From assembly GCA_029934915.1 (NCBI GenBank), contig JAOZLI010000012.1:1-21455 (forward strand): a stretch of DNA of 21,455 bases, read 5' to 3'. The stretch comes from Desulfocapsa sp. (GTDB lineage: Bacteria > Desulfobacterota > Desulfobulbia > Desulfobulbales > Desulfocapsaceae). Shown in pieces: positions 33-18,435 of this stretch (position 1 is the stretch's first letter; each line of letters starts with the position of its first letter). Below the pieces are notes generated by a model, which was not told the origin of the DNA, ran no database searches, and saw nothing but the letters and a program-made list of their open reading frames with translations. A program made the position numbers and the translations under genes.

Positions 33-108
33 TGTAGGTTGGGTTGAGTGTAGCGAAACCCAACATCATAGCAAATGTTGGGTTTCGTTACACTCAACCC
101 AACCTACA
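33..108. repeat. REP-like long hairpin
   Basis: Two 34-base arms (33-66 and 75-108) are reverse complements except for one G-T pair, around an 8-base loop. A second, outer pair AGTTTGT/ACAAACT (21-27 and 110-116) extends the structure. The arm contains GTAGGTTGGGTTGAG and GAAACCCAACAT. Repeats of this type are familiar to me from intergenic DNA of many Proteobacteria and Cyanobacteria, but I cannot search for copies. It lies 46 bases past the stop of the minus-strand TPR/OmpA-like gene, so its RNA could also act as a 3' stem-loop, although no long T-run follows it. Confidence 0.85.
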
Positions 109-2251: not shown

Positions 2252-2431
2252 AGGACTCGACAATAAATAACTTAGACTTTCTTATTCCTAACTGCACCAC
2301 ATCTTCAGTCTGTTTTTCATTTTCAAAATCCTCACATAGCCAGCTATGCTGCGGTTTCGAAAATAAAAAACAGACTGAACCTGCGGCACATTTACGACAG
2401 AAATTGTCCAAGTTATTTATTGTCGAGTCCT
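2252..2431. repeat. 180-bp palindromic element, type 1 (copy A)
   Basis: The terminal inverted repeats (2253-2273 and 2410-2430) match over 21 bases without a mismatch (GGACTCGACAATAAATAACTT). Inside, 2305-2330 pairs imperfectly with 2352-2377 (TTCAGTCTGTTTTT against its complement), and the centre is CATAGC-CA-GCTATG (2335-2348). The element has no coding capacity and resembles a MITE. Its centre recurs almost exactly at 11247-11260 in opposite orientation. TA dinucleotides sit at or beside both ends, which could fit a TA target duplication but is off by one base on the right. Confidence 0.8.
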
Positions 2432-4645: not shown

Positions 4646-4667
4646 CGACTTCAGCGTATTAGCAGTT

Positions 4668-4686
4668 TAGGCTGTAGGCTGTCAGG
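4668..4686 (+). repeat. TAGGCTG-type short tandem repeat
   Basis: Two near-identical heptamer units (TAGGCTG TAGGCTG TCAGG). The same unit occurs in opposite orientation at 18402-18435, just past nrdJ. It lies 23 bases after the RNase stop codon. Purpose unknown. Confidence 0.65.
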
Positions 4687-4774
4687 CAAAGCAGTTTATC
4701 GCATTTTCCTGGATTTTTTGCATAGCCGAACCTTAGAATAAACTCAATTGACTTATGATAAAGGATAAAAAGCT

Positions 4775-5002: not shown

Positions 5003-5086
5003 AATATCGAATATCGAACAAGGAATGTCGAACCGCAGAAGTAAAAAACTTCGTCATTCGACATTCCTTGTTCGACATTCGATATT
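5003..5086. repeat. TCGAA-rich palindrome between convergent genes
   Basis: Arms 5003-5042 and 5048-5086 are near-perfect reverse complements around AAAAA. Each holds ATCGAATATCGAACAAGG-type sequence followed by AATGTCGAA and AGAAGT/ACTTC. The two arms differ at about four positions. It sits between the ends of the 66-residue gene and rfbC, where the stem can end transcription from both sides, though no strong T-run follows. Repeats of this ATTCGACATTCCTTGTTCG type are familiar to me from intergenic DNA of diverse bacteria; this is recollection, not a search. Confidence 0.85.
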
Positions 5087-6917: not shown

Positions 6918-8507
6918 ATGTCCAAACAGCTCGAGCAGGAAATAGCAAAACGACGAACATTCGGTATTATCAGTCATCCAGATGCAGGAAAAACAACACT
7001 GACCGAAAAGCTACTCCTCTATGGAGGTGCCATCAATATGGCCGGCGCTGTTAAATCCAGAAAAGCCGACCGACATGCCACCAGCGACTGGATGGCCATT
7101 GAGCAGGAACGTGGTATTTCTGTAACCACCTCTGTTATGAAATTCACCTATGGCGACTATGAAATAAACCTGCTGGATACTCCCGGTCACCAGGATTTCT
7201 CCGAAGATACCTATCGGGTACTTACGGCTGTTGATTCTGCAATCATGGTAATTGATTCCGCAAAGGGAGTTGAAGCGCAGACAGAAAAACTGATGGAAGT
7301 CTGCCGAATGCGCAACACCCCTCTGATTACCTTCATCAACAAGCTTGACCGTGAAGGTATGGATGCGCTTGATATCCTGGAAGATATCGAAGACAAACTC
7401 CAGATCGAGTGTACTCCAATGTCCTGGCCCATTGGAATGGGTAAAACATTCAAGGGGGTTTATAATCTCTATAAAAAGAAGATTCATCTCTTTACCGCCG
7501 GAACCGAGACGAAAGACCAGGGGGGAGTTACCATTGACTCCTTAGATGATCCGCGTCTTGATGAGGTTATTGGTGCCCACGATGCTGAGGTACTGCGTGA
7601 GGACATCGAACTGCTGGAAGGTGCCGCAAACCCCTTCGAATATGAACATTACCTGCAAGCCAGCCAGACACCTGTATTTTTTGGTTCTGCAGTCAACAAT
7701 TTCGGTGTACAGGAGTTACTCGATGCCTTTGTCGAGATGGCTCCGCCACCAAGCGCCAGAGCGGCAACAACTAGAGATGTTGAGCCCACTGAAGAAACAT
7801 TTTCCGGTTTTGTTTTTAAAATTCAGGCAAATATGAATCCGGCACATCGCGACCGTATTGCCTTTTTCCGCATTTGCTCAGGGATGTTTAAACGGGGCAT
7901 GAAGGTCAGGCATCATCGCTTGGGTAAAGATATCACCCTTGCCAATGCAACAATCTTTATGGCGCAGGACAGAGCCAATGTGGAAGAAGCCTGGCCTGGT
8001 GATATCATTGGCCTTCACAACCATGGAACAATTAAAATTGGCGATACATTTACCCAAAAAGAAGAGCTGAAATTCACAGGGATTCCGAACTTTGCTCCAG
8101 AACATTTTCGCAGAGTAATCTTAAAAGATCCACTCCGGATGAAACAGTTACACAAAGGATTGCAACAACTTGCGGAAGAAGGTGCCATTCAGGTCTTTAA
8201 ACCCATGTTCGGTTCTTCCCATATTATGGGGGCGGTGGGTGTCCTGCAGTTTGAAGTCACTATAGCACGATTAAAAAATGAATATGGCGTAGAAGCAATT
8301 TATGAACCCGTCGACTTTTCGGCGGCGCGCTGGGTGGAATGTGAGGACAAGAAAAAACTTGCTGAATTTGAACAGAAAAATCAATCTTCCCTGGCAATTG
8401 ATGCCGAAGGCTTTCTAACCCATCTTGCGCAGAATGAGTGGATGCTGAATTTCTTTATGGAAAAATGGCCTGAGATAACATTCCATAAAACCAGAGAAAA
8501 TATTTGA
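6918..8507 (+). CDS. prfC: peptide chain release factor 3
   Basis: A translational GTPase that recycles RF1/RF2 from the ribosome after peptide release. 529 residues, full family length. Seen: G1 [12 protein letters not shown] (about 19-30), [29 protein letters not shown] (switch I/G2), [16 protein letters not shown] (G3), NKLDREG (G4), then domain II and the RF3 C-terminal domain ([30 protein letters not shown]). The ATG is preceded by a pyrimidine-rich stretch without a purine-rich ribosome site. It is a single-gene unit, convergent with the DUF134 gene, and its stop is followed after three bases by the palindrome 8511-8617. Confidence 0.97.
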
Positions 8508-8510
8508 CAT

Positions 8511-8617
8511 AAATATTCGGCTAATGCCTCACTTTCGTCCGAGTCGCCCTACTCGCATATGACTCAATATAGCTCGCAAGGCGACTCGAACGAACCTGAG
8601 GCATTATCCAAACATTT
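8511..8617. repeat. 107-bp palindromic element, type 2 (copy B)
   Basis: The outer 37 bases on each side pair at about 31 positions (TAATGCCTCA, TTCG, CGAGTCGCC are exact). The centre is ACTCGCATA (8551-8559), eight bases, TATAGCTCGC (8568-8577). The same centre with the same 8-base spacing occurs at 16672-16698, whereas the arms of the two copies are unrelated. It starts three bases after the prfC stop and lies between convergent genes; no T-run follows it. Confidence 0.85.
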
Positions 8618-11161: not shown

Positions 11162-11262
11162 TAAGGGCTCGTTCAGAAATAAGTTCGTCTTTTGAGGAGG
11201 ACAATGTACTATAGATTACAACGATTTCGAGATGACAAAACCGCCGCATAGCTGGCTATGTG
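11162..11262. repeat. type 1 palindromic element, half copy (copy C)
   Basis: The left end TAAGGGCTCGTTCAGAAATA resembles the end of the element at 2252-2431 (about 19 of 27 positions, reading that element on the minus strand). The centre CATAGCTGGCTATG (11247-11260) with flanks CCGC and TGAGG is nearly identical to the reverse complement of 2331-2354. End-to-centre distance is 92 bases against 90 in copy A. The expected right half is not recognisable after 11262, so the copy is truncated or decayed. The rest of the 10940-11361 gap holds the leader and promoter of the DUF302 operon and presumably a promoter for the DUF4390 gene that I cannot place. Confidence 0.7.
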
Positions 11263-11361
11263 AGGTACTTAGAGTTCTTCCTTCGCGCACAAGACAAAGA
11301 AGATAAAGAGTATTCACAACGCTATCAAATGTCTTCACAACCAATTTATATATATTGCTCA

Positions 11362-15655: not shown

Positions 15656-16630
15656 ATGGTCTTCCCAGAATATCGCCCTCGCCGTCTACGCAAAAATGAA
15701 TCCATGCGTGCCTTGATTCGTGAAACACATCTATCTCCAGATCAGTTTGTTTCACCAGTTTTTATTATGCCCGGCAAAAATAAACGAGAAGAGATCCCTT
15801 CCATGCCAGGTGTCTTCCGTATGAGTGTAGACCAACTGCCCGGGGAGGCTAAGGAATGCACTGATGTAGGGGTCAAGTCCATGTTACTCTTTGGTCTACC
15901 AGACAAAAAAGATGCTATGGGAACGGGTGCACATGCAAAGGATGGAATTATTCAACGTGGAATTCGTGAGCTGAAAAACAAGTCTCCCGAGATCACCGTC
16001 ATCACAGATGTCTGTCTCTGTGAATACACCGACCATGGTCATTGCGGTTGCTTAATCGGCGAAACCGTTGATAACGATGCGACCCTTGAAATTCTTGCCA
16101 AAATAGCTCTCTCACACGCACAGGCCGGAGCTGACATAGTGGCACCATCTGATATGATGGATGGGCGGGTAGCTGAGATTCGGGCAGCACTTGACGAAGA
16201 AAATTTTGATATGATACCTATCATGTCCTATGCAGTAAAATACGCATCAGCCTTCTATGGACCATTTCGCGATGCTGCCGACTGCGCTCCTCAGTTTGGT
16301 GACAGACGCAGTTACCAGATGGATCCTGCAAATTCAAGAGAAGCGCTTCGCGAAGCGACCCTTGATGTTGACGAAGGTGCAGATATCCTTATGGTCAAGC
16401 CAGCTGTTGCCTATCTTGATATTATCAGACAATTAAAAGATGAATTTGATCTTCCCATCGCCGCCTATCACGTCAGTGGAGAATATGCCATGATCAAAGC
16501 TGCTGCTGCTAATGGCTGGATTGACGGTGAAAAGGTGCTTGCCGAAACCCTGCTTTCCATTAAGCGTGCTGGCGCCGATATTATTATTACTTATGGTGCA
16601 AAGGAAATGGCCAAATTGTTGTTGAAATGA
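15656..16630 (+). CDS. hemB: delta-aminolevulinic acid dehydratase (porphobilinogen synthase)
   Basis: Condenses two 5-aminolevulinate molecules to porphobilinogen, the common precursor of heme, siroheme and cobalamin. 324 residues, full length. Zinc ligands C120, C122 and C130 (DVCLCEYTDHGHCG) mark the zinc-dependent form; the Schiff-base lysines are K195 (SYAVKYASAFYGPFRDA) and K248 (MVKPAVAYLDI). AGGAG precedes the ATG by eight bases. It is the last gene of the DUF4390-ntrY-ntrX-hemB operon. Sulfate reducers need much siroheme and cobalamin, and nrdJ in this window also needs cobalamin. Confidence 0.97.
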   Translation: MVFPEYRPRRLRKNESMRALIRETHLSPDQFVSPVFIMPGKNKREEIPSMPGVFRMSVDQLPGEAKECTDVGVKSMLLFGLPDKKDAMGTGAHAKDGIIQRGIRELKNKSPEITVITDVCLCEYTDHGHCGCLIGETVDNDATLEILAKIALSHAQAGADIVAPSDMMDGRVAEIRAALDEENFDMIPIMSYAVKYASAFYGPFRDAADCAPQFGDRRSYQMDPANSREALREATLDVDEGADILMVKPAVAYLDIIRQLKDEFDLPIAAYHVSGEYAMIKAAAANGWIDGEKVLAETLLSIKRAGADIIITYGAKEMAKLLLK

Positions 16631-16739
16631 TGTAACTGTCTAGAAGCACCTATCTCGGTACGGTCAGGCTGACTCGCATAGAAACTACTATAGCTCGCCA
16701 ACCTGCCTGCACCGATATAGGCACTTCTAAACAGTTACA
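16631..16739. repeat. 109-bp palindromic element, type 2 (copy D)
   Basis: It starts on the base after the hemB stop codon. The outer 39 bases of each arm pair at about 31 positions (TGTAACTGT, TAGAAG, CTAT, TCGGT exact). The centre is ACTCGCATA (16672-16680), eight bases, TATAGCTCGC (16689-16698), as in 8511-8617, but the arms are unrelated to that copy. It lies between hemB and yqeY, both on the plus strand, where a terminator would be useful, yet no T-run follows. Confidence 0.85.
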
Positions 16740-16795
16740 AGTTCGGAGTTAGTTGTATGCAAATTTTACAGAAATTTACTTTAGGAACAAGAAGG

Positions 16796-18174: not shown

Positions 18175-18200
18175 GTATAATTCCCATCTCTGATGGTGTC

Positions 18201-18308
18201 GTAAAAACTCTTCATCTTCTTCGTCACTACAAATTTACTTTCATTCCGACGTACCTAAGTACGTCTCATTTCACTAAATTTGCGTTCCTCGAATATGAAG
18301 TTTTTTAC
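18201..18308. repeat. 108-bp palindromic element (copy E)
   Basis: Ends GTAAAAA/TTTTTAC, then TTCAT and CAAATTTA pair between the arms with small slips, and the centre is GACGTAC-CTAA-GTACGTC (18248-18265), a perfect 7-bp stem with a 4-base loop. Total length matches the type 2 elements (107 and 109 bp), but the centre sequence is different, so membership in that family is only suggested. It lies 26 bases upstream of the SEC-C ATG and downstream of nrdJ, all on the minus strand. Confidence 0.75.
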
Positions 18309-18401
18309 TTAACCATCTAAAATTTTACTTTAAAAGAGTTCATCGCCTCTCATTGTAAGGACTTGTTTGCAAATATCCTGTACAAATTCTAAAGTTCAAG
18401 C

Positions 18402-18435
18402 CCTAACAGCCTACAGCCTAATAACCTACAGCCTA
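18402..18435 (-). repeat. TAGGCTG-type repeat at the end of nrdJ
   Basis: On the minus strand the run is TAGGCTGTAGGT, TAT, TAGGCTGTAGGCTGTTAGG: three to four copies of the unit also present at 4668-4686. It abuts the nrdJ stop codon directly. The two sites sit just past two unrelated genes. Confidence 0.65.

Follow-up and report, generated by a model that had tools for sequence, protein, structure and literature searches.

Two palindromes, copies B and D, in the window (the whole 21,455-nt stretch of Desulfocapsa sp. DNA analysed here) are best read as decayed, non-autonomous miniature transposons (MITEs) of the IS66 type. They would carry a strand-specific hairpin that is needed in single-stranded form for spread. 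We place the probability of this reading at roughly 0.7. Its basis is what can be read in the sequences: marks of mobility, family relationships, covariation, asymmetry between the strands and a relaxed constraint on single copies. The reconstructed element would be ~150–158 bp long, with GTAA/TTAC ends, an 8-bp target duplication, a ~108-nt hairpin and a ~42-nt tail. Its minus strand, when single, would form a near-complete stem of ~45 bp, rich in G.U pairs and topped by a recurrent apex, and the plus strand would pair far less. This single-stranded form, most likely RNA and possibly single-stranded DNA, would have to fold for the element to spread, and inserted copies would afterwards be mostly neutral relics. 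Surviving copies in the window's own genome (G000) mostly follow a stop codon directly and are oriented so that the mRNA of the upstream gene does not contain the strong hairpin. Positions are listed in Table 1.

Table 1. Hairpin elements and adjoining genes in the window
Feature	Position	Strand	Description
Palindrome A	2252..2431	minus (folding strand)	Related hairpin module whose ends differ and are longer (AGGACTCGACAATAAATAACTT...)
prfC	6918..8507	plus	Release factor 3, upstream of B
Copy B, hairpin module	8509..8617	minus (folding strand)	GTAA-ended element, G015-like subfamily (ATAAATATTCGG...CCAAACATTT)
Apex of B	8551..8577	minus	Core of the preliminary description
Copy C	11238..11265	plus	Apex only (28 nt, 96% to A); long paired arms absent
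hemB	15656..16630	plus	Delta-aminolevulinic acid dehydratase, upstream of D
Copy D, hairpin module	16631..16739	minus (folding strand)	GTAACTG subfamily
Apex of D	16672..16698	minus	Core of the preliminary description
Possible worn tail of D	16740..16769	plus	AGTTCGGAG...TTTTAC; weak, by eye

The preliminary description had singled out a core common to both palindromes with identical spacing. This core, ACTCGCATA-N8-TATAGCTCGC, has exactly two exact occurrences in the window, the apices of B and D, and 0 of 100 shuffles contained a match at up to three mismatches. Elsewhere in the window's genome no further match was found at up to two mismatches; at up to three there are two extra ones. One of these, on contig C48, is clearly a relative and directly follows a gene that resembles leuA (judged from its letters alone). 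The inverted arms pair at 79% over 47 nt in B and at 80% over 41 nt in D, close to the roughly 80% estimated earlier. RNA fold z-scores are -8.4 (plus) and -10.5 (minus) for B, and -7.6 and -12.5, respectively, for D. The corresponding folding energies, minus versus plus, are -65.5 versus -45.8 kcal/mol and -71.0 versus -46.9 kcal/mol. Both copies had also been reported to begin next to an upstream stop codon. Aligned to intact copies, the left end of each indeed lies 1 nt after a TGA, that of prfC (8505-8507) for B and that of hemB (16628-16630) for D. The remark that no named family has this design agrees with an Rfam search, in which none of 4227 covariance models matched B or D at E<=5.

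The arms of B and D had been described as unlike each other. Compared directly, they do align no better than chance, as equally good matches arose in 383 of 2000 shuffles for the left arm and in 278 of 2000 for the right. As a trait of the family, however, the unlikeness disappears, since the arms align through intermediates. Copy D and the C48 copy can be aligned over their whole length, with 78% identity of D to a copy at G013_L084 and 75% to C48. Among the 34 consensus pairs of D and C48, six have both partners changed and no pair has a single changed partner, a count in which the consensus fold omits broken pairs. R1, the covariance model built from these two copies, has matches in 19 of the 20 genus genomes at E<=1. 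The left arm of copy B agrees at 71% with the G015-type consensus and the right arm at 73%, levels reached by none of 2000 shuffles; the identity of B is 80% to the L212 copy and 73% to the G015 copies. When 28 selected representatives, among them B and D, are aligned, the alignment spans the full length. By these alignments B and D can be assigned to one family linked through intermediates, and their arms appear unrelated because the two belong to different subfamilies.

The broader model, R2, has matches at E<=1e-5 in 107 of 146 searched genomes of the order. In a draw of 297 genomes from the phylum, four genomes had a match at E<=1e-12, all from the order; at this threshold the draw's remaining genomes of the order gave no match. 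A pattern scan of genome contigs returned 86 stretches, 80 of which are given as loci. The contigs bear names including Desulfocapsa, Desulfobulbus, Desulfobia and Desulfopila, which suggests that the order carrying the family is Desulfobulbales. Desulfopila sp. IMCC35006, a cultured relative, has a family hit in L178. Two loci from Leucobacter (L175) and Edaphobacter (L197) were rejected as chance hits, as neither has a covariance-model match at E<=1e-4. Two pattern scans of viral contigs gave 0 matches, and among the plasmid matches listed there were only 20-nt ones at E 4. In Desulfobulbus HyVt-436 (L145, L170, L172, L188 and L204) the family hits are longer (139–195 nt), apparently through extended apices, and some have intact duplications.

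The ends and flanks of the copies point to mobility. An intact copy is laid out as 8-bp duplication, GTAA...hairpin...TTAC, tail, TTAC, duplication. Dropping opposite-strand hits at one place reduced the hits from 255 to 154; for the duplication test, removing copies without flanks reduced 182 to 164. The 8-bp target duplication is exact in 61 of these 164 copies and has one mismatch in 16 more, as against 0.38 and 0.68 in shuffled data. In 75 of the 77 copies with a duplication of at most one mismatch the tail is 40–45 nt long, and 64 elements with duplications measure 148–158 nt. The terminal inverted repeats start with GTAA (GTAACTGTTCAG / GTAAATATTCGG), match the right ends in intact copies and have become worn in B and D. 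Neither of these two copies has a recognisable target duplication: around B the right tail was not recognised either, and the possible tail of D has no clear 8-bp duplication (the best candidate has 5 mismatches). In G000 a duplication at up to one mismatch was found in only 4 of 33 copies. Within locus L212 (1025-1350) one element is nested in the tail of another, and ATAAGTAG flanks the inner one on both sides.

GTAA-type ends combined with an 8-bp duplication are marks of IS66. The sister species G004 contains three identical elements of ~1.73 kb with the IS66 transposase domain PF03050, and their 14-bp ends (GTAACTATTCAGCG...CGCTGAATAGTTAC) are the same as those of the hairpin family; their own duplications are not clean by eye. 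PF03050 is present at E<=1e-10 in 6 of the 20 genus genomes; neither G000 nor G017 (77 hits), both of them incomplete genomes, has a match at this threshold. Judging from its duplications and ends, the hairpin family is mobile. All three tested features, namely GTAA ends, the 8-bp duplication and ends common to an element with an IS66 transposase, agree with a putative IS66-type MITE.

None of 101 placed copies lies inside a called ORF. Upstream genes were called with a simple ORF rule and counted after removal of copies identical in the 12 nt ahead of the left end (182 rows left). Thirty copies in G000 have a called upstream gene, which is in sense for 26 and antisense for 4, and 21 of the 30 are in sense and start within -12..15 nt of its stop codon. 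This placement could favour the idea that each copy serves the host as a structured RNA behind a gene, in mRNA end protection, processing or termination; PMC2229807 reports effects of ERIC on transcripts and suggests them for YPAL. We nevertheless consider such a service quite unlikely. Sense placement behind genes puts the strong hairpin strand of the G000 copies mostly antisense to the upstream gene, so that the mRNA would hold the weaker strand. In the other genomes orientation is balanced, with the upstream gene in sense in 73 cases and antisense in 67 (33 copies stand in sense at a left-hand stop and 12 have a convergent stop at the right end). Finally, pairing decays on terminal branches of the tree, where 0.39–0.55 of changes break it. 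A host-gene function of single copies was rejected because of this decay.

The two insertion sites of the window were compared with those in related genomes. Behind hemB, the next reading frame follows within ~40 nt in 8 of 19 sister genomes (G005, G006, G008, G009, G010, G011, G016 and G017), which therefore have no insert there (by eye). At the same place G001 and G015 have a family-like element, and G012, G013, G014 and G018 have other palindromes (also by eye); no stop was found in G019. As the hemB-yqeY gap (L269-L286) holds different palindromic repeats depending on species and none in others, it is an insertion hot spot. Behind prfC no such element was found within 230 nt in G013, G014 and others, in a comparison where the true stop was missed in G000 and perhaps in G001, G009, G012 and G018, and none was found in G017.

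The conserved fold is that of the minus strand, and the preliminary description had read the weaker-folding one. In the 146 of 182 rows that are 105–125 nt long, the arm mismatches on the plus strand are A.C in 776 cases, G.T in 133 and transversions in 757, counts that are non-independent because copies share ancestry. A plus-strand A.C mismatch is a G.U pair on the minus strand. The minus strand folds better in 142 of 143 copies, with a mean gain of 15.4 kcal/mol; copy orientation came from plus-strand sequence models, so it was not picked by minus-strand energy. For the same 28 sequences, alifold gives -49.9 with 40 pairs on the minus strand and -18.3 with 26 pairs on the plus strand. Compensating changes, which had been proposed as a check, are abundant: among the 28 representatives 33 of the 40 minus-strand pairs show two-sided change, 94.7% of cells pair, and there are 189 two-sided cells compared with a shuffled mean of 55 and with 14–40 in slid controls. 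Pair lists and trees were derived from the same copies. On the plus strand 23 of 26 pairs show two-sided change, as expected if the same stem is kept. The plus-strand fold was considered as the functional one and rejected: its covariation is strong too, but the A.C and G.T counts and the energies favour the minus strand, which we therefore take as the folding strand. The tail was likewise rejected as a second minus-strand hairpin, being more stable on that strand in 23 of 64 cases and equal in 1. Alignable arms that pair no better than shuffled controls had been named as evidence against the design; the arms are alignable, yet their pairing far exceeds controls.

We also asked how asymmetric other palindromes are. 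Of 69 distinct palindromes that were folded, 54 are family copies and 6 more have an apex-like motif. Among the remaining 9, four can be read as family copies in overlapping loci and the one in L013 as a related element. Four true controls remain (window 33-108, window 5003-5086, L005 and L011), with strand differences of 2.1–8.3 kcal/mol, which makes this control a small one. The first of them is a different repeat, a near-perfect 34-bp inverted repeat (TGTAGGTTGGGTTGAGTG...; -61.4 and -59.2 kcal/mol) with similar ones in L005 and L011, and the second is a long hairpin (AATATCGAATATCGAACAAGGAATGTCGAA) with a small strand difference. Further repeats were observed in the window. A longer imperfect palindrome with the apex GACGTACCTAAGTACGTC lies at 18192-18317 and has look-alikes beside L111 and behind hemB in G012. 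Stretches of the TAGGCTGTAGG type occur in inverted orientation 13.7 kb apart (4667-4687 and 18402-18435), and a palindrome (AGGGTTCACTAAAAACAAA.../...GAGTGAACCCT) is located at 2510-2595 upstream of an RNB-domain gene.

Two explanations had been offered for paired but dissimilar arms, selection on pairing and rebuilding of the arms from one side. Maintained pairing is borne out by the two-sided changes, and arm copying as the main cause was rejected. Copying would turn G.U pairs into Watson-Crick ones, yet 130 of 154 copies retain the CA/CA site, which forms a tandem U.G pair (UG/UG) on the minus strand (28 of the 182 rows, gapped or unread at this site, were left out). Template switching, which would rewrite the arms from one side and yield pairing without selection, is a very improbable account of the family. 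It does find some traces: the CA/CA site is fully repaired in 3 of the 154 copies, B reads TG/CA there, which fits a local templated rewrite, and in the left arm of B three neighbouring letters (ATG in place of GCA) agree with the right arm. Fifteen two-sided changes also fall on short terminal branches. However, rewriting would erase G.U positions, which persist on one strand only, and it gives no strand bias of the kind seen on the internal branches of the tree (49:4).

The tree comprises 143 copies (the 182 rows minus those outside 110–122 nt or with N), and its parsimony counts are approximate; many of the genomes are drafts. Internal branches carry 49 changes to minus-strand G.U, 4 to plus-strand G.U, 20 to other mismatches and 115 two-sided changes; the respective numbers on terminal branches are 138, 72, 150 and 128. 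Minus-strand pairing is broken by 0.13 of the changes on internal branches, as against 0.39 on the terminal branches of G000, 0.45 on long terminal branches and 0.55 on short ones. Since single copies decay, selection seems to act during propagation. Thus, the fold would be required along propagating lineages, with settled copies largely neutral.

A strand-biased mutation process, such as deamination of one strand, could in principle have produced the G.U pattern. Short terminal branches lean the same way (47:28), and on internal branches the 17 unpaired columns have more G>A than C>T changes (22 versus 6). At the same columns, however, A>G outnumbers T>C (22 versus 10) and cancels the G>A excess, so that the classes are uneven and the sums balanced. 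For unpaired columns, tail and paired columns, respectively, the sums of (G>A + T>C) against (C>T + A>G) are 32:28, 38:40 and 95:86 on internal branches and 48:54, 60:51 and 209:262 on terminal ones. A net mutation bias is therefore not supported, in sum, as the cause of the wobble bias, and we regard this explanation as hardly credible. Compensating changes, G.U pairs confined to one strand and the lack of net mutation bias at unpaired sites together argue that a single-stranded fold has been selected.

On the minus strand the core reads GCGAGC...GCGAGT and can be modelled with a G.A internal loop and a single bulged base, followed by a short stem that carries a variable loop, although not in every copy. 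The apex pattern occurs 88 times in 1.45 Mb of loci, which had been fetched because of these families, and 86 of the occurrences tip hairpins of at least 22 pairs; a core that is often without paired arms, regarded beforehand as evidence against the design, was thus not seen in these loci. The predicted strand is better by >5 kcal/mol in 73 of the 86 hairpins, the other strand by that much in 0. The reversed pattern has 9 occurrences, 2 of them with hairpins. Copy C is one of the two apex occurrences that lack a hairpin.

Palindrome A has an apex related to that of the family, folds with -103.1 kcal/mol on the minus and -76.7 on the plus strand, and matches R2 weakly (E 7e-4, over model positions 16-105). 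Its relatives were found in 4 of the 20 genus genomes; 27 loci reduce to 21 distinct elements, 20 of which fold better on the predicted strand, L325 being the exception. A palindrome at L013 14875-14981, with a related apex (CCGCAGGCGTAGC...GCTACGTTGAGG), other arms and energies of -59.8 versus -36.8 between strands, is possibly a third kind of carrier. We tentatively entertain the possibility that minus-strand RNA with the recurrent G.A-loop apex, or single-stranded DNA, drives MITE amplification whatever the transposase, at least two kinds of ends having carried it in this order.

Integron attC sites and IS200-type ends fold as single-stranded DNA, and the minus-strand hairpin might do likewise during transposition or replication, with no RNA role. 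The asymmetry is indeed present with DNA parameters, in the same direction as for RNA (minus versus plus, B -32.8 versus -24.8, D -32.3 versus -22.7), and constraint tracks propagation, not the fate of single copies. A purely DNA-level role is still unlikely in our view, since the 8-bp duplications and the terminal inverted repeats are signs of double-strand cut-and-join and since the related module also sits within a second kind of ends. G.T pairs form in single-stranded DNA as well, so the RNA form of the preferred IS66-type element is an inference.

Many of the miniature transposons in bacteria are long palindromes, and to our knowledge it is unsettled if the hairpins have any role. The many copies of this family offer a test of the hairpin's role without experiment, in which the tree locates selection in propagating lineages and not in settled copies. 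Foldability kept on only one strand suggests a role in the spread of the element for RNA or single-stranded DNA made from it. The choice between these two, and a protein that would read the apex, become directly testable questions.

In the open-licence literature we found neither this hairpin family described nor strand-specific covariation reported for any bacterial MITE, and no paper joining MITE, IS66 and Desulfobulb*. From IS66-type MITEs, with which it has in common GTAA-type ends, the 8-bp duplication and ends like those of an element with the PF03050 transposase, the family differs in its ~108-nt hairpin, in an inner foot that is a third copy of the end and in strand-specific covariation. 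In integron attC sites one strand folds into the active hairpin and the arms are variable; their recombination is site-specific and leaves no target duplication. The one-strand fold is the single respect in which the two are alike, and the 8-bp duplications of the present family speak against attC membership. YPAL elements insert close behind stop codons. As described in PMC2229807, YPAL/RU-2 of Yersinia is a mobile element of ~168 bp with internal inverted repeats and a possible influence on the upstream transcript; its duplications range from 3 to 26 bp, whereas here the 8-bp length, the only one sought, was found in the 61 of 164 copies, a comparison of descriptions and not of sequences. 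ERIC and NEMIS/Correia are likewise miniature mobile hairpins, an orientation-dependent RNA effect being reported for ERIC, and by the same source their termini are 5'TA3' as opposed to GTAA...TTAC here, again without comparison of sequences (PMC2229807). QMITE1/QMITE2 of Coxiella, set beside the family by description, are MITE loci that yield structured small RNAs, and strand-specific covariation is not mentioned in the excerpted text (PMC5896051). The method of counting A.C against G.T in the arms is applicable to ERIC, YPAL and similar repeats. In size, mobility and position the family resembles ERIC, YPAL, NEMIS and QMITE repeats as far as these are covered by the parts available of PMC2229807, PMC5896051, PMC2847712 and PMC3733652, and by analogy such miniature elements would be its closest kin.
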